From the NCBI GenBank assembly GCA_913058255.1, contig CAJXQU010000006.1, positions 62,001 through 126,000 on the forward strand: a stretch of DNA of 64,000 nucleotides, written 5' to 3'. The notes beneath the pieces were generated by a model, which was given only the letters and a program-made list of their open reading frames with translations, ran no database searches and was not told the DNA's origin. This document shows positions 34,464 through 49,016 of this stretch, in pieces. Position 1 is the stretch's first letter. The number at the start of each line of letters is the position of its first letter. This DNA is from an uncultured Pseudomonadota bacterium (GTDB lineage Bacteria > Pseudomonadota > Gammaproteobacteria > CAJXQU01). The translations under genes were made by a program, and so were the position numbers.

Positions 34464-37400
34464 ATGCGCTTAAAATATTTTTATCAACTTACCTTATGTT
34501 TCGTTTTGTTCTTCACGGCATCCGCTTCTGCAGTGCCGATCGCTGAATATCATCTTAACGAGTTTTTCTGGGACTCTTCACCTAAAGAAGTCATTGATAG
34601 CAGTGGTAATGGCTATCATGGGCAAGTTCTTGTTAATACGAGTCCCTCAACAGCCTCACCTGTAACCATGGGTAATCCAGGAACGTGCGGCTATGCTTCA
34701 ATGGCTGGCGGAGCCATTGCGCTGACAGGTCTTCCTGTCTCTACAGCCGCTGGAGCAAAAACAACGGTTAGCTTTTGGATGAACTGGGATGGTTCTTCAA
34801 GTGTCATGCCAATTGGCTGGCAAGTTTATGATCTCTATTTTTCTTCTAATTCTTTCGGGTTTAATAGTGGAGTTGGGGATATTTATGGAATTCCTTCGAC
34901 GGGTTTAGCAAATGGTTGGCATCATGTTTCCGCTGAGTTTACCAATGGAAATATGTATGGAAATAGGTTAGTGATAGATGGTGTTGAGCAAAGGCTGACA
35001 CAGCGATTAAGCAGACCTAATAATAGCCGGACTTATGTCGGCAGTGAACTTCGAGTGGGTGGCTGGATCATTAATGGAGGCTACAAGTTTTCAGGTGGCA
35101 TTGATGAAGTTCGTGTACATAATGGTGCATTATCGGTAGCTGAAGTACGGGCTATAATGGATGAATCAGAGTCTTGCGTGACAAAAGAGCCTATTGCCGA
35201 CTGGCATTTCGATGAGCTGAGTTGGTCGGGAATTTCTCAAGAAGTAAAAGATAGTAGTAATAACGGCCATGATGGCGAGGCATCCATCGGCACCACGACA
35301 ACGGATGAAGCTCAGCTATGTCGAGCGGCTGATCTGACCGCCGACAGTATCAAAGATTATGTTGTTTTGGATAACGATGCATTACATGGACTCAATGATT
35401 TCTCAGTATCGTTATGGGCAACCGTACCGAACTCTCCAAGTGGATTAATCTCTGCTGCAGGCTCTAGTTCTAATAATGAGCTGCTCATTTTTAAGACCAG
35501 TGCTACAAAGATACGTCTTTACTTACACAATGAGTCTCGCCAATTTACCGTTCCAAATTTGGAGGATGGGCTATGGCATCACTTCGTTTGGACTAGGACA
35601 GGCACAAATAATTGTTTATATGTTGATGGTAGCTTAACTCAATGTGTTTCAACCTATAGGGCTGCTAAGTTATTAAATGTGCAAGGGCTGGTTATAGGGC
35701 AAGAACAAGATGCCGTACTGGCTCGGTTTGATAAAGGCCAAGAACATGAAGGGTTGGTTGATGAAGTTTCTATTTATAATAGAGCAATCAATGCTGTTGA
35801 AGTGGCGGAGTTGCATGACAATATAAGCGCAGGGAAAAATGCTGATGGAACGGTTAGGCACTGTCCAGGAACGCCTGTCGCTGAATGGCGCTTTGATGAA
35901 CCATTTTGGAATGGAGCTACTGGAGAAGTTATTGATAGCAGTGCCAACCAATTGCACGGAAAATCTATTGCTAATGCCATAACAGATGCAACGACACCAG
36001 CATTGGCCGGTCGCTCAGGTACGTGTGGCTATGGCGTTTTTGATGGAACGGCTGGTGGTAAGACTGGACAGCACATTCAATTGCCGAATGACTCTAATTT
36101 AAACTCGATCAGTGATGCTTTAACTTTAACTGCTTGGGTCAATGTTTCTGAATCAGGCCCGTATAACTATATTATTTCTAATGATCGAGACTGTTGTGGT
36201 TCTTACAAAGGCTTCTCACTGAGCGTTCGGTATGGTGGTAATGTGCCAGAATTTAAGATTTGGGATAATGCGGGTTCTTCTCATGTTGTTCATGGTACTA
36301 GGTTAAATTTATCACAGTGGTATCACCTTAGCGCTACATTTGATGGTAAGGAAATGAAGCTTTATGTCGATGGAGTTTTGGCAGGAACAACCTATTATAC
36401 GGGGAAAATAGGAACGGACTCTAGCTATGACACTGTGCTTGCGGGTCTTGGACATGCCCCTAGTACTTATAATCTAACAGGGCTTCTTGATGAGGTTCGG
36501 GTTTATGATGCGGCATTGGATGAGACGGCTATATTAGGTGTTATGAACGATACAAGAGCTTGCTCTGATAGCTGTAATATTAGCCACGATTATTTATTGT
36601 TTGAAGATGATTTTGATGATGGTGATTTTTCTGGTTGGGATATACATCGTTTTAATGGCAAAGGGTGTGGCTGGACTGTTGAAAACGGCCGATTAAAAGA
36701 GCAACGAAATTCATGCTCAGGGTTTTTGGGACATGGGCTTAAAACCAGCGAGAGGATTCTAAAAGACTATGTGATCAAGGCTGATATCGATGCCCGACCC
36801 GCAGGTGGAAATAACGGTGTTGGCTTGGTATTCGGCTATGTTGATGATAAAAACTATTATATCGTTCGGTGGCGCGATTATGGTACTGCTTATACAAGCT
36901 CCTCAACTCATCGTAATTTTGAATTACTCAAAGTTAGTGCCGGTGTCACGAGTGTTTTAGATAGACAAACACAGTTTGTCTTACCTGACTCCTTCGAAAT
37001 GACGGTTGATGTCACTAATAAAAACGGCATCAACGTTTTTATTGATTGTGGTATAAGCTTGCAGGCAAGTGAAGACTTCCCTGAAGTCCAAGAGTTTGGT
37101 TTATACACTCATGATAATGATAGCGCTGTTTATTATGACAATGTTCGGGTTTATGGAAAAGTTGTACAGCCACCCGAACCACTCGCTTTATTTCACCTTG
37201 ATGGTTCTAATTGGTCAGGATCTGCGAATGAGATAGTTGACAGTAGTGGTAATAATCATCATGGACAAGTTTCTGCGAACACGAGTCCTACGAATGCCTC
37301 ACCGGTAAAAAATACCGATCCTGGTACCTGTGGTTATGCCTCTCAAAATAGAGGAAGTATTTTAATACCTAACTTACCCGTATCCACAACTGCTGGTGAT

Positions 37401-39899
37401 AAAACGACGATCAGCTTTTGGATGAAGTGGGATGGAACTAATAGTGTTATGCCGATAGGTTGGGAACGATATGATTTATGGGTTTATTCCGGAAACATTG
37501 GTTTTAATACAGGAGCTGGAGATAATTTTGGTACATCTACCCTCGGACTAGATTCTGGCTGGCATCATCTGTCAGCAGAGTTTACCAATGGTAATGTAAA
37601 AGATAATCGGATAGTGATTGATGGAGTCGAGCAGACACTGTCGCAGTTGCGAAATTTTCCAAGTAATACTTACGCTGTGGTTGGGCCGGATTTACATATA
37701 GGTGGCTGGGGAGTCAGTGGAGGGTATCGTTTCACAGGGGATATTGATGAGTTACGAGTTGATAACGGTTCTTTAAGTGTTGAACAGGTTCAAACAATAA
37801 TGAATCAAACGCATCCTTGTAGCGGAACGACACTTGACCACTTTAAGATTTCTCATGATGGGGCCGGTATCCATTGCGCAGATGAGACAGTTATTGTATC
37901 TGCAATCGATGGTAATGGTAATTATTTGGAATCTTATACAGGAACAGTCACGCTAGATACACAGACAAGCACAGGAAGTTGGGTTAGCACGAGCGGTTAC
38001 GGAGTATTAAATGATTCAGTCGCTGATGATGGTGTTGCAACCTATACCTTTTCTTCCGCAGATAAAGGTTCGGTTAGTCTAAGGCTAAGGTATGAAGAAG
38101 GTCCAGCCACGTTTAATATCGATGCTTATGATGGTGGGATCCGCGATGATGATAGCGAAGATGATTTTACCTATGCCGCGAGTGGTTTTTTGCTGACGGC
38201 AAACCCGATTAGTAATCCTCCGCCAACATCTATTAATGATCCTATTTTAACGCAAACATCAGGAGCAGATTTCCCTGTTTATATAACAGCGTATGGACAA
38301 TCTGCGACACACCCTGAATGTGGGGTTATCGAAAACTATACCGGGAATAAACCGATTCGTTTTCAAGGTGACTACATTAATCCAACAAGCGGTACGCGCA
38401 GTATATCTGTCAATGGTGATCCGATCAGAATGGGAGGCCTAGACTCATCGAGAATAATAAAATTTTTAAACGGTAAAGCAGAATTGACTGTTAATTATAA
38501 AGATGCAGGCAACACGAGAATACGTGCTTACGATACGACAGAGGCTGACAATGTTTATGGTATTAGTAATGCCTTTGTTGTGAAACCAGATGGCTTTAAG
38601 TTTGAAGTTAAACGAAGTAGCGATGATGCTCCAAATCCAGCCGCTGCAAACGCATCTGGGGATGACTTTGTGGCAGCGGGAGCAGGTTTTGATGTCAAGG
38701 TCTCCGCCGTTGATGTTAACGGTGATACCACACCTAATTATGGCAATGAATCAACTCCAGAAAGTGTCAAAATTTCACATGCTCTAGTTGCACCTATTGG
38801 TGGAGCTGTAGGGAGTATGGATATAGTGGACAGTTTAATTTCGAAAGGCAATGGTGTCTTTAGTGGGACCTACAGCTGGGATGAAGTGGGAATTATAAAA
38901 CTCACAGGATCGGTCTTAGATGATAATTATTTGGGAGCCGGAAACATTATATCCGACTCTGATAATATTGGACGTTTTATCCCCGAACATTTTGCAATTA
39001 ATAATAAACAAGATGGTAATTTAAGTAAGAACTGTACTGTGCTCCCTGGCGTTTCTGGATTTAACTATATGGGACAGGAGTTTGGTTATAGTTTAGGAAA
39101 TCGTCCAACATTTGATATTGAGGCAAAAAATCTAGCGGGTGTAACAACAGATAATTATGAAGGTGGTTTTGCAAAACTTAGCATTGCTGGAGTCTCAATT
39201 GCAACCGTCAATAAAGATGCGAGTAATGGGATGCCGATTACACCGGATGAAGGAACAGCAAGCTTAGCGGCCTTTTCAAAAGGTATTGCTACTTATACAT
39301 TTGGTGAAGATAAATTTACTTATGCTCGCAGTACGGCTATCGGTAAATTTAATAGTGATATTGATCTTTTAATTGAGAGTATTAAAGATAGTGATGATGT
39401 CAAAGATAACTTTTCAACCACTGAAAAACTAGAACCAAGCGAAGTCGAATTACGTTATGGCCGATTGATGATTAACAGTGCATTTGGTTCGGAGTTGCTC
39501 GATCTTATTTTACCGATTTCACTGCAGGTTTATGATGATGCAACTGGTGGTTTTAGAACAGATACTGACTCAACGGATAATCACAGCTGTGCTGTGTTTA
39601 CTGTCTCCCCACTTGAAATGTTAGATGGTTTAGACCCCAGTTTGGTCTCAACGAGTCTTTCTCCATTGACTAGTGGAGGAGAGGCTGCATTTACCAATGG
39701 AGAGGCTGCATTGACTATTACAGCTCCGGGAGCGGGGAACCGAGGTACCTTAGGTGTGACATTAGATGCACCATCTTGGCTTCAATTTGATTGGGGCAGA
39801 CCATTAACAGAACCTAACCGGTTAGATCCAAAAGCCACTGCTACATTTGGGATCGATGCTGGTAACGATGCCTTTATTTATCAGCGAGAGGTTCGGTAA
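34464..39899 (+). CDS. mshQ: MshQ-like giant LamG/DUF6701 surface protein
   Basis: 1811 residues, secreted (signal peptide 1-23, SASAVP). Four LamG/concanavalin-like modules lie at about 25-236, 243-455, 468-700 and 905-1117; between the third and fourth is a beta-sandwich (about 712-896, DDFDDGDFSGW). From about 1125 to the end it resembles the MshQ/DUF6701 C-terminus (HFKISHDGAGIHC, ELRYGRLMINSAFGSELLDL). The first and fourth LamG modules are close copies (STASPV...NPGTCGYAS and NASPV...DPGTCGYAS; VMPIGW; GWHH.SAEFTNGN). Normally mshQ follows mshP; here it lies about 33 kb away. Adhesin role is inferred. Confidence 0.8.
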   Translation: MRLKYFYQLTLCFVLFFTASASAVPIAEYHLNEFFWDSSPKEVIDSSGNGYHGQVLVNTSPSTASPVTMGNPGTCGYASMAGGAIALTGLPVSTAAGAKTTVSFWMNWDGSSSVMPIGWQVYDLYFSSNSFGFNSGVGDIYGIPSTGLANGWHHVSAEFTNGNMYGNRLVIDGVEQRLTQRLSRPNNSRTYVGSELRVGGWIINGGYKFSGGIDEVRVHNGALSVAEVRAIMDESESCVTKEPIADWHFDELSWSGISQEVKDSSNNGHDGEASIGTTTTDEAQLCRAADLTADSIKDYVVLDNDALHGLNDFSVSLWATVPNSPSGLISAAGSSSNNELLIFKTSATKIRLYLHNESRQFTVPNLEDGLWHHFVWTRTGTNNCLYVDGSLTQCVSTYRAAKLLNVQGLVIGQEQDAVLARFDKGQEHEGLVDEVSIYNRAINAVEVAELHDNISAGKNADGTVRHCPGTPVAEWRFDEPFWNGATGEVIDSSANQLHGKSIANAITDATTPALAGRSGTCGYGVFDGTAGGKTGQHIQLPNDSNLNSISDALTLTAWVNVSESGPYNYIISNDRDCCGSYKGFSLSVRYGGNVPEFKIWDNAGSSHVVHGTRLNLSQWYHLSATFDGKEMKLYVDGVLAGTTYYTGKIGTDSSYDTVLAGLGHAPSTYNLTGLLDEVRVYDAALDETAILGVMNDTRACSDSCNISHDYLLFEDDFDDGDFSGWDIHRFNGKGCGWTVENGRLKEQRNSCSGFLGHGLKTSERILKDYVIKADIDARPAGGNNGVGLVFGYVDDKNYYIVRWRDYGTAYTSSSTHRNFELLKVSAGVTSVLDRQTQFVLPDSFEMTVDVTNKNGINVFIDCGISLQASEDFPEVQEFGLYTHDNDSAVYYDNVRVYGKVVQPPEPLALFHLDGSNWSGSANEIVDSSGNNHHGQVSANTSPTNASPVKNTDPGTCGYASQNRGSILIPNLPVSTTAGDKTTISFWMKWDGTNSVMPIGWERYDLWVYSGNIGFNTGAGDNFGTSTLGLDSGWHHLSAEFTNGNVKDNRIVIDGVEQTLSQLRNFPSNTYAVVGPDLHIGGWGVSGGYRFTGDIDELRVDNGSLSVEQVQTIMNQTHPCSGTTLDHFKISHDGAGIHCADETVIVSAIDGNGNYLESYTGTVTLDTQTSTGSWVSTSGYGVLNDSVADDGVATYTFSSADKGSVSLRLRYEEGPATFNIDAYDGGIRDDDSEDDFTYAASGFLLTANPISNPPPTSINDPILTQTSGADFPVYITAYGQSATHPECGVIENYTGNKPIRFQGDYINPTSGTRSISVNGDPIRMGGLDSSRIIKFLNGKAELTVNYKDAGNTRIRAYDTTEADNVYGISNAFVVKPDGFKFEVKRSSDDAPNPAAANASGDDFVAAGAGFDVKVSAVDVNGDTTPNYGNESTPESVKISHALVAPIGGAVGSMDIVDSLISKGNGVFSGTYSWDEVGIIKLTGSVLDDNYLGAGNIISDSDNIGRFIPEHFAINNKQDGNLSKNCTVLPGVSGFNYMGQEFGYSLGNRPTFDIEAKNLAGVTTDNYEGGFAKLSIAGVSIATVNKDASNGMPITPDEGTASLAAFSKGIATYTFGEDKFTYARSTAIGKFNSDIDLLIESIKDSDDVKDNFSTTEKLEPSEVELRYGRLMINSAFGSELLDLILPISLQVYDDATGGFRTDTDSTDNHSCAVFTVSPLEMLDGLDPSLVSTSLSPLTSGGEAAFTNGEAALTITAPGAGNRGTLGVTLDAPSWLQFDWGRPLTEPNRLDPKATATFGIDAGNDAFIYQREVR

Positions 39900-39900
39900 A

Positions 39901-40893
39901 CTAATTACGGCATTGGTAGTGATGACAAGCGGGAGCATGGGCTTCAATTTTTTCTGAACACCAAGCCAACATATCCTCTTGCAAGTCTTGACGGTATGCG
40001 ATCATACCGTCGGACTCTTCTAACGGTCCTGCAAAAAGCTTTTCATCAGGATAGAGCTTCGTCATATTCTTGAAATATCCTTTGGGGACACGAAAAGCGC
40101 CAACGCTGATTGAATGGATCTTTGCTAAATCAAGTTGTTCAAAAACAGTATTAAACATTTCACCATAATGGGATTTGTAGTCATCCATATAGATCAAAGG
40201 TTCAAAACGAATCCCAACATTCCAACCGGCTAACTGCAGCTTTTTCATCGCTTCAATGCGATGAGAAAGCGAAGGTGTTTTATCTTCCAGTGCTTGGGTA
40301 ATATTCTCCGGAGATAAACTAAAAGCGATCACACAATTTGGAATAGGTTCAGCTTTAAGTAGTGAACGAATTTGGGTGCTTTTGGTTCGAAACTCAAGAT
40401 GTGCGAGAGGTTGTTGACGAAAGAATGGTAAAATATATTCAGCAAAGTTTGTTACCGGGTCTAATGCTAGACTATCGCAATCATAACCTGAATAGAACCA
40501 AACTTTTTCGCCATTATGAATAGATAGTTTTTTATTTATTTCGTTAGAAAAATCTTCATAGTTTACAAAAAGAACATAGTGAGCTGACCGATACATTCCT
40601 TGTAAAAAACAATAGCGACAGTCATATATACAGTTGAGCATATGAGAAAAGTAGTAATTGTTATCGCCGCCAATACCATAACTATCAGGCGCTTCCAATA
40701 CAAAACCCTGATGCTTTTTTGCGAGAATTAAAGAAGGCTGTTTCTTCTGCAAACGGAAGTTTTGTGATTTACGATTGAACACTTCAGTATAGCGATCACA
40801 TTCAATCAATGTGGCCTTTGGAAACCTGGCGAGAACTTCTTTCGTAACAGCGTGCTGACGGATTTCACTCTCAATGTAAATAGTAGAAATCAT
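39901..40893 (-). CDS. radical SAM protein, spore photoproduct lyase-like
   Basis: 330 residues. The radical-SAM cluster motif is C88-x3-C92-x2-C95 in NCIYDCRYCFLQ, followed by SPL-family features (GYDCDSLALDPVT, RTKSTQIRSLL, AFSLSPENI, KLQLAGWNVGIRFEPLIYMDD). The spore photoproduct lyase in Bacillus repairs thymine dimers of dormant DNA; this organism shows no sporulation genes here, so the substrate is probably different. C139 lies near the region of the Bacillus hydrogen-donor Cys but not obviously aligned to it. The ATG overlaps the stop of the upstream nucleosidase gene by 4 bases. Confidence 0.82.
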   Translation of the reverse strand: MISTIYIESEIRQHAVTKEVLARFPKATLIECDRYTEVFNRKSQNFRLQKKQPSLILAKKHQGFVLEAPDSYGIGGDNNYYFSHMLNCIYDCRYCFLQGMYRSAHYVLFVNYEDFSNEINKKLSIHNGEKVWFYSGYDCDSLALDPVTNFAEYILPFFRQQPLAHLEFRTKSTQIRSLLKAEPIPNCVIAFSLSPENITQALEDKTPSLSHRIEAMKKLQLAGWNVGIRFEPLIYMDDYKSHYGEMFNTVFEQLDLAKIHSISVGAFRVPKGYFKNMTKLYPDEKLFAGPLEESDGMIAYRQDLQEDMLAWCSEKIEAHAPACHHYQCRN

Positions 40894-41708
40894 GATTGAA
40901 AATAAATCGATTGAGAGCTGATTATTTTATCTAAATGTTGAATTATTTTTTGACTCGATGATGAATTAATAACTTCTGATAGGTTAATGGATGTTTTAGG
41001 ATTTAATAATTTAATCTGTCTTAAACGAGCTTTAACTAGCAACTGCTCCGAGTGAGTTAGTCTTACTTGATCATTAATTTTATCAAACAGTTCGGGTATC
41101 TGGTTAACGGTTTCTAGCGCGTTACTTACCTCTAATAAATGATTAGTTAAGCTACTAATATCGCGCATATTGTTTTCAACCATTTCTGTCACTTCATGTT
41201 TTTGGAATTTTCTAACAGGCGATTGTTTATTATCAGAAACAACTTTGTAACACTGGACCAGTTCACCACTACTAAACCGGCTTGCCGTTGCATAAAAGGC
41301 GGCTGCTTCCATATCAACCCCACCTTGTTGATGATACTCGCTGTCAGGCTGGTCAACCGTATGTAATTGATCAGTTATACAAGAAGGGGTGAATGTTATC
41401 GGTGGATAATAGGTTTTCTGTGTCGAGCAATCAATGATTTTGTTGGCAATAAATCCTGCTCCTAACTCAAGATCAGAATGTCCTGCAATACCTATATTTA
41501 ACCATGCCGAGTGAGACCTTAAATTTGTTAAAGCATGGATAAACCCAACTGCACTAGCTGCCGCAGTTTTACCTAAGCCCGATACGATTAAAGTTATCTG
41601 ATCATTTTTATAGATCTGAAATGCATTTATTTCTGTTTGTTTCTTAAGGTTGTATTTCGAAACAATGGGAGCTCCCTCACAAGGTAGTGCTGTGAGTATG
41701 ATTAACAT
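40890..41708 (-). CDS. nucleosidase/phosphorylase-like protein (PNP/MTA-SAH family)
   Basis: 272 residues. Features of the PNP-UDP/MTAN fold: ALPCEG near residue 7-12, NIGIAG at 71-76, VDMEAAAFY at 131-139 and VVSDN at 156-160, matching the substrate-binding glutamate and SD positions of MTA/SAH nucleosidases. The C-terminal 80 residues are an unassigned helical extension. It would release a base from a nucleoside or nucleotide. Coupled by an ATGA overlap to the SPL-like gene, which suggests a shared substrate. Confidence 0.72.
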   Translation of the reverse strand: MLIILTALPCEGAPIVSKYNLKKQTEINAFQIYKNDQITLIVSGLGKTAAASAVGFIHALTNLRSHSAWLNIGIAGHSDLELGAGFIANKIIDCSTQKTYYPPITFTPSCITDQLHTVDQPDSEYHQQGGVDMEAAAFYATASRFSSGELVQCYKVVSDNKQSPVRKFQKHEVTEMVENNMRDISSLTNHLLEVSNALETVNQIPELFDKINDQVRLTHSEQLLVKARLRQIKLLNPKTSINLSEVINSSSSQKIIQHLDKIISSQSIYFQS

Positions 41709-43085: not shown

Positions 43086-43451
43086 TCAACCAAGAATTTC
43101 ACGAACAGCTTTGCAGGTGTCGCTGGCTTCGAGCCTAACTAGACCGAGATTACCATTAGCTGGGGCACGAACCGCAAGCACACCTTCACTGCCTACTTTA
43201 TAAAGTAGCAATAAGCCTTCTTCACCTTTAACCATTGTCTCAGTGACTTCACCCAAGGTCGCATTTTGTGCTATCCGAGCACCTAAACCTGAAGCCGCGG
43301 CACCAACGGCTGCGATACGTGCACCTTCATCATCGGGAAAATCAGATGCGATCGACAAACCATCAGTGCTTGCCACCATTACACCCGTAATATCAGGTAC
43401 GTTTTGACGTAAATCATCGATCAGTTTCTCTAGTTGTTCTTGTTTTGTCAT
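43086..43451 (-). CDS. Roadblock/LC7 domain protein
   Basis: 121 residues covering one Roadblock/LC7 domain: LIDDLRQNVPDITGVMVASTDGL, then RIAAVGAAASGLGARIAQ, EEGLLLLYKVGSEGVLAV and NLGLVRLEA. Bacterial Roadblock proteins act as GAPs or scaffolds for MglA-type small GTPases that control polarity and pili. The next upstream gene on this strand (43492-44769) is probably its partner, 40 bases apart. No MglA is in the window. Confidence 0.85.
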   Translation of the reverse strand: MTKQEQLEKLIDDLRQNVPDITGVMVASTDGLSIASDFPDDEGARIAAVGAAASGLGARIAQNATLGEVTETMVKGEEGLLLLYKVGSEGVLAVRAPANGNLGLVRLEASDTCKAVREILG

Positions 43452-43491
43452 CAGCTTATTCCTTTGCTTTTATTAAATCATACTGAGTTGA

Positions 43492-44769
43492 TTAAGAAGT
43501 TTTGGTCAAATTAGACCAGAGTGAGTTTATCAAGCCAGATTTTTTGTGTGGTGATATTTCCCTGATAATTTCTGACTCAATAGTATTATCGTCTTCAATA
43601 ACATTGAGATCTTCATCTTTAGCAGACATTTCAACTTTCTCGTCATGAGTAATGTCTTCATTGCGTAGTAATTGAATCGCATCGCAAGCGTTACAAAAAT
43701 CAATAATCGTTTTTGTGTCGATATTAATATCATTGTTGATCGCTTCAAGATTCTTATGATTATTAACCAGAAACTCTGCTGTAGTCACGTGATCAGCTGT
43801 ATGTGGGATCATCCCAAAATAGGGCATATGCACTAAATGGAAAGGTTTTTCGCTGTCGAGATTTTCTAACAACCGACCTTCCGAACCGAATAATGCGGCT
43901 GTAAATAGTAATTTCCATAATGATTGCGGTAAACGACCACTAAATAACTCGTCTTTAATGTCATTATCAAGGATATCTAGGGTAAATGATTCAGCAGGTT
44001 CGCGGAACATTTCAGGATAACTATCGAGCTCTTCAGTAAAAATAAACCAACCGTTGTCAGGGAAGATCCTTAGAACTGGGTAGTTTGCGTGGCTGATTTG
44101 GGTTGTTTTGCCACTTTCGATACTATTAAAAATCAGTCCTAGCAATTGGGTTTTCGCAACAAAAGTTTGGTTGCTTGGTTTTTGTTGAACAAAATTATTG
44201 CTTGATATTACTTCAGAGGTAAGCGGTTCAGTTTCAAATTCTTCGACTTCATCTTCAGATAGCCAATCAATTTTATGTTTAGTTATTTCATCGGTGTTTA
44301 TTTTTTTGACATCAGCCTCGTTTGAAACTTCCTGTGCAATTTTTTCGGTCTGTTCGATTACTTGTGTATTATTCACCTCAACTAAACCTTCCCGCTCAGT
44401 AGAATCTTCTAAATTTACAATAGGGGCCGCTTTGACGCGTTTTCGAGAGTTTAGTTCTGCTTCTAGTTTCTTCAGGAGTGACGTAATACTTTTGTATGAG
44501 AGAGGAGAAACAAGTGTAAGCCCGTTTATTTTATGCTCAGCAGAATTTGTGTAGGGAATAACTAAAGCGCCAGTTTGACTAGGCTCTTGTTGCAGAATGG
44601 CTTGTCCTTCAGGCGTTTCCGTATTAGCAATAATCACTTGGGCTGTTGCTTGTTCACTAACAATTTGCCAGCGGCCGGTTTCGATCCCCGCCGCGAGATC
44701 TATTGTTGTTTCTAGTAATGCATGTTCACGGCTTTCAAGGCCTACCGCTGCAATTTTCCATATCGCCAT
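43492..44769 (-). CDS. unknown protein paired with Roadblock gene
   Basis: 425 residues, no recognised family. The N-terminal 110 residues look alpha/beta (MAIWKIAAVGLESREHALLE, QVIIANTETPEGQA). Residues about 125-195 are an acidic, low-complexity linker. The C-terminal part (about 195-370) is more hydrophobic (TQLLGLIFNSIES, GWFIFTEELDSYPEMF, PQSLWKLLFTAALFGSEG, HLVHMPYFGMIPH) and may be a folded domain, with one Cys pair FCNACDAI. Possibly a signalling or polarity adaptor for the Roadblock protein; this is inference from position. Confidence 0.55.
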   Translation of the reverse strand: MAIWKIAAVGLESREHALLETTIDLAAGIETGRWQIVSEQATAQVIIANTETPEGQAILQQEPSQTGALVIPYTNSAEHKINGLTLVSPLSYKSITSLLKKLEAELNSRKRVKAAPIVNLEDSTEREGLVEVNNTQVIEQTEKIAQEVSNEADVKKINTDEITKHKIDWLSEDEVEEFETEPLTSEVISSNNFVQQKPSNQTFVAKTQLLGLIFNSIESGKTTQISHANYPVLRIFPDNGWFIFTEELDSYPEMFREPAESFTLDILDNDIKDELFSGRLPQSLWKLLFTAALFGSEGRLLENLDSEKPFHLVHMPYFGMIPHTADHVTTAEFLVNNHKNLEAINNDINIDTKTIIDFCNACDAIQLLRNEDITHDEKVEMSAKDEDLNVIEDDNTIESEIIREISPHKKSGLINSLWSNLTKTS

Positions 44770-45606: not shown

Positions 45607-46440
45607 TTATTGAAGAATTAACAATTCACCTTGACCTTTAATACTTAAATCACCCACATAACGAGTGACCCAAGATGAATTTTCTTTAAGGTTCTTCAAG
45701 CGTTGGTTAGAGTTTGCTAGCGAGTTAAAGATCAGCTTTAAGAAAGCCAATTCAAAAGAGCCACATTCGTTAAATGTTGCTGGCATGCTCGTGGGTTGAT
45801 CGGAGAGGATAATAGTCCCACGTTTCATTCCAAAGCCAGTATTGCTGCCCGCTTGTCCACAGATCATGATGGTTCCCGCAATCATGCGTGAACCTGTGTA
45901 ATCGGCGGTGTTACCTTCAACCACGATCATACCGCGACGCATTTTATCGCCCGTACGTTCTCCAGTATCACCAAAGACATGAATAGTCCCACCACGTAAG
46001 CCGTGTGATTGACCGGGTAAAGCGCCACCGAGGAATTTTCGTGCATTTTTTTGTACTTCTATTCTGCCGTCACGCATTCCCGTTCCGACCCAATCGCCAG
46101 CATTGCCTTTGATCGTGAGTTCGCCACCATTCATATCTTGGCCAGCTCGGTCTCCAACGGAACCACGGACTTCAATCGAACCTTGGTTCATATTCCGACC
46201 AATGCTATCAAACAAATCTACCGCTTTTTTGAAGATTATTTTTTGAGTATCTTCGCCACCGATGTCGAATAGTTTTTCGACGGTTAGTTTTTTGTTTCCT
46301 ACCGCGATTTTTATTTTAGCGATTTTTTCCAGCGGCTTGCCTTCAAGTTGATTTGGGATCAACGCGGATAAATCGATACGTTGGATAAGTTTTTCTTTCA
46401 ATGTGAAAGTTAATGGTTTGATCATTTTATTTTGACTCAT
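45607..46440 (-). CDS. fhcC: formyltransferase/hydrolase complex subunit C
   Basis: 277 residues. The central region is a right-handed parallel beta-helix of repeats G-x-x-x-G-x-x-M-x-x-G (GDRAGQDMNGGELTIKGNAG, GTGMRDGRIEVQ, GDKMRRGMIVVEG), as in FhcC/FwdC. It joins FhcA, B and D to transfer the formyl group from formyl-H4MPT to methylofuran and hydrolyse it to formate. Last gene of the minus-strand fhcBADC operon, 9 bases after fhcD. Confidence 0.95.
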   Translation of the reverse strand: MSQNKMIKPLTFTLKEKLIQRIDLSALIPNQLEGKPLEKIAKIKIAVGNKKLTVEKLFDIGGEDTQKIIFKKAVDLFDSIGRNMNQGSIEVRGSVGDRAGQDMNGGELTIKGNAGDWVGTGMRDGRIEVQKNARKFLGGALPGQSHGLRGGTIHVFGDTGERTGDKMRRGMIVVEGNTADYTGSRMIAGTIMICGQAGSNTGFGMKRGTIILSDQPTSMPATFNECGSFELAFLKLIFNSLANSNQRLKNLKENSSWVTRYVGDLSIKGQGELLILQ

Positions 46441-46449
46441 TTTTCATTC

Positions 46450-47346
46450 TCACTTAAGAATTTTTCGTAAATGAAAATGGTGAGGGCCGAGATTACCGCC
46501 ATAGTTACCAGCACTAATTCGCTTGATGCCTTTTTTGCTACCTAATGAGCAAGCAGCTAAAACTCCAACACGTGTGGCTTCACTGATCGCTTCTTGTGAA
46601 AGACCGTCGATGACGATCTCCATCACTGAACCGATGCTGCTATCCAATTCAGATTTCACTTGGCCTTTTAGAGTGGGACAAAATGCATCGTTGGTTGAAG
46701 CTGGAAGTGTTGGATACTTTGATCCAACTTTTGAACCGGATCGAACAACGCCGCCAGGGAAGGGCATGATCACATCAGGTATCTTCTTCATGGCGACAAT
46801 GGCTTTTTCACAAGCCTTGAGGGCGACCTCTTGATTTTCTGCCAATACTAAAAAGTTACCACCACCAATCGCTTTCGTCATATGGGTACTTTCTTCGACC
46901 AGAAACTCGCCATCCATCGCAGGAATACGCCAATAGCGCACGCCGTCAATTTTTTTCGCAATTTGATGACCATCACCGAAGTAGCGAAGGTTTTTACCCA
47001 AAGCTAGCTTCTCACCTTCATGCATGCCGCTGAAACAAGCACTGGTCGGAGAGGTGAGAACACACTGACCAACTCGGTTTTGGATCTGCTTGATCATTTC
47101 TTTTTTGCTCATAGTAAATAGCAAAACTGAAAGTCCAGGACGTCCATCAGGCGTTTCAGAAGGTTTAAGCTCTTTCTCAATGGAAGATTCACAACCACAA
47201 GCAATAACCGAAGTTGCAAAACCTGTCATCGCGTTAGCTGAGTGATAAGCCCATTTTAAATTTAGCGCGGTGATAATGATCCGCGTTGCTTTCATTGGGA
47301 AAGCTTCTGCGAAGGTATCATCAATCGTTACACCATTAATTTTCAT
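46450..47346 (-). CDS. fhcD: formylmethanofuran:H4MPT formyltransferase subunit
   Basis: 298 residues. Family landmarks TFAEAFPMKATRIIITA at the N-terminus, GGGNFLVLAENQEVAL, FPGGVVRSGSKVGSKYP and AGNYGGNLGPHHFHLR at the C-terminus, as in archaeal Ftr and methylotroph FhcD. It moves the formyl group between H4MPT and methylofuran. It starts 4 bases inside the fhcA end. Confidence 0.96.
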   Translation of the reverse strand: MKINGVTIDDTFAEAFPMKATRIIITALNLKWAYHSANAMTGFATSVIACGCESSIEKELKPSETPDGRPGLSVLLFTMSKKEMIKQIQNRVGQCVLTSPTSACFSGMHEGEKLALGKNLRYFGDGHQIAKKIDGVRYWRIPAMDGEFLVEESTHMTKAIGGGNFLVLAENQEVALKACEKAIVAMKKIPDVIMPFPGGVVRSGSKVGSKYPTLPASTNDAFCPTLKGQVKSELDSSIGSVMEIVIDGLSQEAISEATRVGVLAACSLGSKKGIKRISAGNYGGNLGPHHFHLRKILK

Positions 47347-49016
47347 GCGTTGGTGTCCTCCCGTGAGCAGTGATGCTGGGTAATACTACCGCGTCCCTCA
47401 TCAATAATTTCGTCGTCCGAGACAACGATATTGTCTAATGCAACGGTGTGGTATTTTTTGTAGAATTCGTCGAGTGATTTCTCAATACTCTTGTCATAAT
47501 CAGGTTTGATCACATGGGTTGTGCCTTGCGTAACCTTGACTATTTTGCCATTTTTAGCAACCAGCTCACCGTCTTTAAAGACGTACTCTGGTTTTTCGAA
47601 CATCTTCTCTTTGTTATCGATTTCTTTATAGACAGCAATATCCGCTGCTGCGCCGACACCAAGTTGCCCTCGATCGGTCAGACCAAGGCTTTTCGCAGGA
47701 GCCGCCCGAGTCATTATGGCAATTTCATATAAGGAATATTCACGTTCAATTGATCCGAGAACGGTCATGTCAGCAGCTTCTTTATTGACGGTGTGCAACA
47801 TGTCATTTCGGAATGAACGATCCATTAGTAGTCGGATCAAATGAGGGTATGAAGTAAAAGGTGCACCATTTGGATGATCTGTCGTTAAGAATACCCGCCA
47901 AGGATCATCAACCATCAAGAAGGTTTCTAAACCAATCGCCCATTGCAACGCATTAACAAAACTCTTATCGGTATATTTAAACGGAACAACACCACAGCCG
48001 TTGTCACATTCGATATCCATTACAACCCACTTGTTCGGGCTGCCATGTGAATGTCCAGCGTATTGCCGCATTGTGTCACCAGAAGCGGTAACCGTTTGGT
48101 TGAACATGATCTGACCAACGTCGATGGAAATATTTTTATGGCTATTCACCATCTCAGCAATTCGTGCTGCGCCAGAAGAGAAGTTTTTATCACCTTCAGT
48201 CGCAAAACTATGGAACTGAATATGCGTCATGTGCATAGGCAGACCTTCCATGCCACGGATCGTATCGAGTGTTGTTTCGACATTACCCGGAACACCTAAA
48301 TTACAACCATGTACATGAAGAGGGTGCTGCACTTTTAGATCAACTAAGGATCGAGAAAGTGTTTTTAACACATCACGCGGCGTGATCTGATAGTGAGTAT
48401 GTTTTTCATCCAAGTCGAGCTGACGCTGGTTGAATTTAAACGCACTGATGCCACCCGGGTTTACCACTTTAACCGCCATCGCTTGGAAGTTAGAGATTGT
48501 CCAGCCTACATAGTCATTCATGACCTCCTGTTCAACACCCTGCGCCATCATGCGCATAAACATGTCATCGTTACCGAGCATGACATAAGCCCCTTTGTCG
48601 ATGATCGGTGTGTCAGCCATTTCCATGTGGGCTTGTCGAGCATTGGCCTGCAACATGGCGGGCTCAAAACCAGCGGTGTAACCCATTTCGACATAACGAT
48701 AGCCTGCCGTCAGCGTTGAGGGTGCAGCATGACCACAACCCGCTCGCGTTAATGGCGTACGACTGACTAAATCTTGCTCGTGATCTTCGGGCAACATCAT
48801 GCGTGCGATATTCACTTTGCCGCCGCCGATATGCGTATGAGGATCGATTCCACCAGCCATGACGACACGACCTTTTACATCGTATGTTTTATGAATGGTT
48901 TCATCTTTAGACGGCTTATCAACGATGCGCCCATTACGAATGAAAATATCTTTAATCTGGCCGTTGACCCCATGCATGGGATCATAAACTTTGCCACCTG
49001 CTAATTTGATCAGCAT
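47343..49016 (-). CDS. fhcA: formyltransferase/hydrolase complex subunit A
   Basis: 557 residues, amidohydrolase fold homologous to FwdA/FmdA. The metal motif H60-x-H62 lies in MAGGIDPHTHIGGGKVN, with further metal His in HVHGCNLGVPGNVE and MTHIQFHS. It hydrolyses formylmethylofuran to formate. 17-base gap from fhcB, 4-base overlap with fhcD. Confidence 0.96.
   Translation of the reverse strand: MLIKLAGGKVYDPMHGVNGQIKDIFIRNGRIVDKPSKDETIHKTYDVKGRVVMAGGIDPHTHIGGGKVNIARMMLPEDHEQDLVSRTPLTRAGCGHAAPSTLTAGYRYVEMGYTAGFEPAMLQANARQAHMEMADTPIIDKGAYVMLGNDDMFMRMMAQGVEQEVMNDYVGWTISNFQAMAVKVVNPGGISAFKFNQRQLDLDEKHTHYQITPRDVLKTLSRSLVDLKVQHPLHVHGCNLGVPGNVETTLDTIRGMEGLPMHMTHIQFHSFATEGDKNFSSGAARIAEMVNSHKNISIDVGQIMFNQTVTASGDTMRQYAGHSHGSPNKWVVMDIECDNGCGVVPFKYTDKSFVNALQWAIGLETFLMVDDPWRVFLTTDHPNGAPFTSYPHLIRLLMDRSFRNDMLHTVNKEAADMTVLGSIEREYSLYEIAIMTRAAPAKSLGLTDRGQLGVGAAADIAVYKEIDNKEKMFEKPEYVFKDGELVAKNGKIVKVTQGTTHVIKPDYDKSIEKSLDEFYKKYHTVALDNIVVSDDEIIDEGRGSITQHHCSREDTNA

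Follow-up and report, generated by a model that had tools for sequence, protein, structure and literature searches.

We describe a gene pair in which a radical SAM protein with the fold of spore photoproduct lyase (SPL) is encoded next to a nucleosidase. The two genes are co-inherited in unrelated bacteria and fused in Fusobacterium; their folds are known, but the subfamily and the gene system are new. Our preferred reading, which we hold tentatively and by analogy, is that the SPL-fold enzyme and the adenine-nucleoside-type nucleosidase may be the core module of one pathway and carry out consecutive steps in it. Among radical SAM enzymes, SPL is the textbook case of DNA repair, and the pair offers a testable handle on what its relatives do in bacteria that form no spores: the genetic partner is strict, the natural fusion protein lends itself to biochemistry, and two pathway genes recur. 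What it would reveal is either an SPL scaffold turned to new radical SAM chemistry or an inbuilt means of disposing of an inhibitory SAM by-product.

A co-inherited gene pair

In the window, by which we mean the whole analysed stretch of 64,000 nucleotides, both genes lie on the minus strand, with the nucleosidase-like, MTAN-like gene (272 aa, 40890-41708) upstream and the SPL-like radical SAM gene (330 aa, 39901-40893) downstream. The preliminary description had reported an ATGA overlap between them, and the open reading frames and the sequence confirm it at 40890-40893, where the nucleosidase stop meets the SPL-like start. Pfam assigns the SPL-like protein to SPL (PF20903, 2.5e-24) and the nucleosidase to PNP_UDP_1 (PF01048, 28.2 bits against a cut-off of 25.1), and neither protein fits any NCBIfam equivalog. 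The end of a convergent gene for an 1811-aa, repeat-rich LamG/concanavalin-like secreted protein (34464-39899) is a single base away from the stop codon of the SPL-like gene. The host had been taken for a methylotroph, which it very probably is, since Ftr and further fhc-like genes for C1 oxidation linked to tetrahydromethanopterin are present in the window (45607-49016). Between this cluster and the pair lie a Roadblock/LC7 gene and a gene for a 425-aa protein without a Pfam match (43086-44769).

A genome scan returned 44 related loci, in most of which the nucleosidase gene is adjacent and upstream. With further genomes added, the set comprised 69 non-redundant loci (85% identity), and the neighbour counts drawn from it are lower bounds, as a frame on the opposite strand was sometimes chosen and a number of contigs are short. 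In 50 of the 69 loci the gene immediately upstream, and on the same strand, is that of the nucleosidase. This, together with a Fisher p of ~1e-54 for co-occurrence (323 genomes, over 30 families, without phylogenetic correction), places the arrangement far beyond chance. Among the 323 Gammaproteobacteria, 52 genomes have both genes, five have an SPL-family gene only and none has the nucleosidase only. When called at 450 bits or more, the SPL-like gene is present in 42 of these genomes, 40 of which also encode the nucleosidase. Ten further genomes combine an SPL-family variant of about 430 aa with a short nucleosidase of about 200 aa, and two have SPL-like fragments and the nucleosidase. The five exceptions are three genomes of one family with an SPL-family gene at 145-160 bits, and the genomes G076 and G288, which are described below. 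Only in G097 did a nucleosidase match (43 bits) occur where no SPL gene is present, and this gene scores 179 bits as a classical MTAN.

In an independent set, all 30 genomes with the SPL-like gene also have the nucleosidase; the unlinked cases include methanotrophs that encode the nucleosidase elsewhere, several times beside a GT2 glycosyltransferase gene. Frequent occurrence of either gene alone, which had been named as grounds for giving up the pairing, was therefore not what the survey found. In a 299-genome sample of the phylum, neither gene was detected outside G000 except for weak matches of other SPL-family or nucleosidase genes, and the system is thus patchy. A search of the literature returned nothing relevant on SPL with a nucleosidase, on SPL with SDR or GT, or on SPL in Fusobacterium.

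In Fusobacterium vincentii (NZ_CP084075) a single 623-aa frame comprises the nucleosidase, its helical domain and the SPL-like part (L101:5104-6975) and is followed by a gene for an SDR reductase. A fecal contig (L103) carries the nucleosidase, the SPL-like gene and the SDR gene in a row. The joint action proposed from the gene overlap is supported both by this fusion and by the co-occurrence of the two genes even where they are unlinked. The Fusobacterium record (NZ_CP084075.1, 2.1 Mb) is filed as a plasmid and looks like a chromosome. Two fecal records named 'Bacteriophage sp.' (MT835514.1 and MT835770.1) contain the module; they are unverified and look like bacterial DNA. A viral origin of the pair was rejected, as the viral-contig scans yielded no relative.

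Folds, residues and domains of the two proteins

Structural modelling had been suggested as a check, and the AlphaFold2 model of the SPL-like protein (pLDDT 91.6) resembles SPL structures along its entire length, with a TM of 0.86 (Foldseek, 4fhg/4fhc). Its scores lie far below the equivalog cut-offs, with 95.5 bits against 400 for TIGR04070 (spore photoproduct lyase) and 77.1 bits against 437.55 for TIGR03886 (SPL family protein). The radical SAM cluster motif C88-x3-C92-x2-C95 with Y94 (40609-40632, minus strand) is invariant in these four residues in the 69 loci. In SPL repair, C141 (Bs) is the hydrogen donor and Y99 and Y97 regenerate SAM (PMC5368176). The phmmer alignment places Y137-D138-C139-D140-S141-L142 (40468-40485, minus strand) in the hydrogen-donor loop of SPL, and the position of the donor cysteine, C141 (Bs) or C140 (Gt), is taken by Tyr137. 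The preliminary description had drawn attention to C139 near the expected donor region. This residue does lie in the SPL loop, but it aligns two residues after the catalytic cysteine position and is not its counterpart. D138 and D140 are found in all 69 loci and C139 in 64; the other five have A, G or T, so that C139 is not essential across the family. As it is also absent from the 430-aa variants, we rejected it as an essential catalytic residue. Sequences from Fusobacterium and the gut have a cysteine at position 134 instead.

The equivalent of Y97 (Bs) is Tyr94 in 69/69 loci and the Y99 (Bs) position is Phe96 in 63/69, so the full Y97/Y99 radical relay is not found in the SPL-like protein. 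With Tyr137 and Phe96 in place of the SPL residues, regeneration of SAM as in SPL is unlikely, and judging from these residues the enzyme probably consumes SAM. Net charge was uninformative, as the median pI of the SPL-like proteins (6.7) is like that of Nostoc SPL (6.8). The second SPL-family type of about 430 aa has an extra N-terminal region and the motif GQ[SA]SDSL or similar. At L073-L079 and L092 a gene of this type, with the motif GQSSDSL, replaces the SPL-like gene in genomes that have a GT2-nucleosidase-SDR operon, and in most of the variant genomes examined the short nucleosidase belongs to such an operon.

The best fold matches of the nucleosidase model (AlphaFold2, pLDDT 92.5) are MTANs and futalosine hydrolase (Foldseek). 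E11 (41676-41678), by motif the catalytic Glu of MTAN, and the MTAN-type ribose-binding motif M133-E134 (41307-41312) are invariant in 50/50 members; in the MTAN-type general acid motif S158-D159 (41232-41237) the Asp is kept in 50/50 and the Ser in 49/50, all three lying on the minus strand. The protein reaches none of the NCBIfam cut-offs: its best score is 24 bits where 124.7 are required, PRK05584 for MTA/SAH nucleosidase gives 17.6 bits against 169, and the HpnG model TIGR03468 gave no match to it up to an E of 1. Classical MTAN is absent from the window genome, where the PNP superfamily is otherwise represented by HpnG and an MTIP/MTAP-type phosphorylase. In the larger survey classical MTAN (TIGR01704) occurs in 32/323 genomes and in 0/57 with an SPL-family match, with about 5.6 expected. 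This is only a mild avoidance, and a replacement of MTAN by the pair's nucleosidase was rejected.

Not all copies of the nucleosidase are intact. G076 and G288, which belong to one genus, have a frame that is still open and is flanked by the GT2 and SPL-like genes; the catalytic Glu, the Met-Glu and the Ser-Asp are lost from it, and what it retains is the C-terminal helical domain and the YP segment. The same dead but open pseudo-nucleosidase is found on a gut contig (L102). Apparent pseudo-nucleosidases of this kind, without the catalytic motifs and with the helical domain, lie at L090:4396-5058, at about L139:4200-4905 (between GT2 and the SPL-like gene) and at L102:5511-5993. Hydrolysis must be dispensable in G076, G288 and L102, or another enzyme performs it.

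The helical domain itself spans approximately residues 192-272 (40890-41135, minus strand), is modelled as helices and is missing from the nucleosidases that are paired with the 430-aa SPL variants. An hhalign comparison with the N-terminus of these variants aligned 71 columns at a score of 22.1, with a probability of only 14% and an E of 0.002 for a single comparison. As controls, 60 shuffles of the columns stayed at or below 13.1, the reversed profile gave 14.1, and segments taken from the nucleosidase core or from the other families reached 17.6 at most. The similarity between the two regions is no more than suggestive. The nucleosidase probably contacts the radical SAM enzyme via this domain. 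At L030 a 201-aa nucleosidase accompanies an SPL-like protein of normal length, and there the helical domain is therefore absent.

Partner genes and possible functions

An SDR reductase gene lies directly downstream in 44/69 loci and a GT2 glycosyltransferase gene upstream in 29/69; the remaining neighbours each occur in at most 10/69 loci and look lineage-specific. The SDR motif residues S135/Y148/K152 and the GT2 motifs D86-x-D88 and E174-D175 are invariant. An assignment to the arsenosugar GT2 family (TIGR04283) was rejected, with 76.6 bits against a cut-off of 182 and as one among many GT2 matches. In three marine Alphaproteobacteria loci (L030, L043, L044) a predicted exported methyltransferase-like gene is located directly upstream of the nucleosidase, and a relative of it follows the SDR gene in two methanotroph loci (L012, L015). 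A methyltransferase-like gene (cluster 12) adjoins five loci, which is a weak lead. The window methylotroph has the core pair only. At E 1e-40 the GT2 and SDR families are absent from its genome and from the sister genome G001, so that these genomes have either a reduced form of the system or unrelated enzymes.

The paired genes and their SDR and GT2 neighbours point to a biosynthetic pathway rather than to DNA repair. In the pathway that we propose, the SPL-like enzyme would cleave SAM without regenerating it and give a 5'-deoxyadenosyl-containing product, from which the nucleosidase would remove the adenine. The freed sugar aldehyde could then be reduced by the SDR and the resulting product glycosylated by the GT2, so that one or both of these enzymes would complete the pathway in most carriers. 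A more specific form of this proposal, possible though on the unlikely side, is that the SPL fold, so far associated with DNA repair alone, acts as a 5'-deoxyadenosyl transferase or another SAM-consuming synthase whose product passes to the tethered nucleosidase, the SDR and the GT2. The end product would be a glycosylated metabolite of methanotrophs, marine bacteria and their relatives, with Fusobacteria using a core version. We know of no precedent for an HpnH-like adenosylation by an SPL-fold enzyme. The nucleosidases without catalytic residues in G076, G288 and L102 speak against this biosynthetic reading, as do the lack of GT2 and SDR families in the window genome and G001 and the fact that C139, the obvious hydrogen donor, is not universal.

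A different possibility is that the pair's nucleosidase is dedicated to 5'-deoxyadenosine and relieves product inhibition beside an SPL-like enzyme that performs other hydrogen-abstraction chemistry with SAM as co-substrate; dead nucleosidases could then be accommodated wherever another enzyme clears the by-product. Radical SAM enzymes are known to be inhibited by 5'-deoxyadenosine (PMC8102628), and the absence of classical MTAN from the 57 SPL-family genomes fits such a role. But most MTAN-less genomes also lack the pair's nucleosidase, radical SAM enzymes elsewhere manage without a nucleosidase of their own, and the SDR and GT2 are left unexplained; we regard this as an unlikely account. The pseudo-nucleosidases, which stay open and keep the helical domain, also raise the question whether the nucleosidase is primarily a subunit of the SPL-like enzyme, with a helical domain that docks it or delivers substrate and with hydrolysis as a secondary function. 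The Fusobacterium fusion and the resemblance of the helical domain to the N-terminus of the 430-aa variants are in line with this. It is nevertheless rather unlikely, given that the domain is missing at L030, that the hhalign probability is low and that all 50 intact members retain the catalytic motifs, which means that hydrolysis is under selection in most of them.

The preliminary description had read the pair as a nucleic-acid or nucleotide repair or salvage step. Salvage survives as one rival among several: the nucleosidase might free a modified base that the SPL-like enzyme then splits, with the SDR acting on the fragment. Queuosine hydrolase (QueK) and the radical queuine lyase (QueL) share this two-step logic, SPL is for its part a lyase that acts on a nucleobase product, and the module is present in gut bacteria and Fusobacterium. 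Since QueK belongs to another enzyme family (IPR023186), the neighbours of the module showed no queuosine genes and the GT2 has no place in the scheme, we consider base salvage quite improbable. Repair is the part that found no support. The full-length SPL fold would suit repair of DNA photoproducts in a non-sporulator, and a relocated hydrogen-donor cysteine is known from the SPL of Clostridium acetobutylicum (PMC5368176). Against it stand the Tyr at the SPL cysteine position, the Phe at the relay Tyr, a C139 that is not conserved in the wider family, the scores far below the SPL equivalog cut-offs and the conserved SDR and GT2 partners, so that SPL-type repair appears very improbable indeed.

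Comparison with known systems

The nearest parallel to the proposed biosynthetic order is the assembly of the hopanoid side chain by HpnH (a radical SAM enzyme whose Cys106 reduces a radical intermediate), HpnG, a still unidentified reductase and HpnI (PMC12583986). Both systems combine a radical SAM enzyme, a PNP-family nucleosidase or phosphorylase, a reductase step and a glycosyltransferase, but the family models identify neither protein of our pair as HpnH or HpnG. Separate genes for both are present in the window genome (HpnG at L094, 192.4 bits against 187.1), and HpnH occurs in 7/57 SPL-family genomes, with about 7.8 expected by chance, which is no association. To our knowledge Fusobacterium makes no hopanoids. 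The substrate must therefore differ from that of the hopanoid enzymes, and a hopanoid side chain was rejected as the general substrate. The QueK/QueL salvage route resembles the pair in the logic of a nucleosidase and a radical lyase and differs in the family of its hydrolase.

With MTAN and futalosine hydrolase the nucleosidase shares the PNP_UDP_1 fold and the motif residues Glu, Met-Glu and Ser-Asp. It differs from them in its extra C-terminal helical domain and in its tie, seen in the co-occurrence and in the fusion, to the SPL-like gene. TIGR03886, like our SPL-like protein, represents SPL-family radical SAM proteins in bacteria without spores, but it is another subfamily (about 77 bits against 437.55). 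Spore photoproduct lyase SplB (PF20903, TIGR04070) is similar over the whole chain (TM 0.86) and has the CxxxCxxC cluster, the Tyr between the second and third cluster cysteine and the SAM-site Lys. The SPL-like protein departs from it in its score (about 95 bits against 400) and in having Tyr137 at the hydrogen-donor cysteine and Phe96 at the relay Tyr, and its gene is accompanied by conserved nucleosidase, SDR and GT2 partners.
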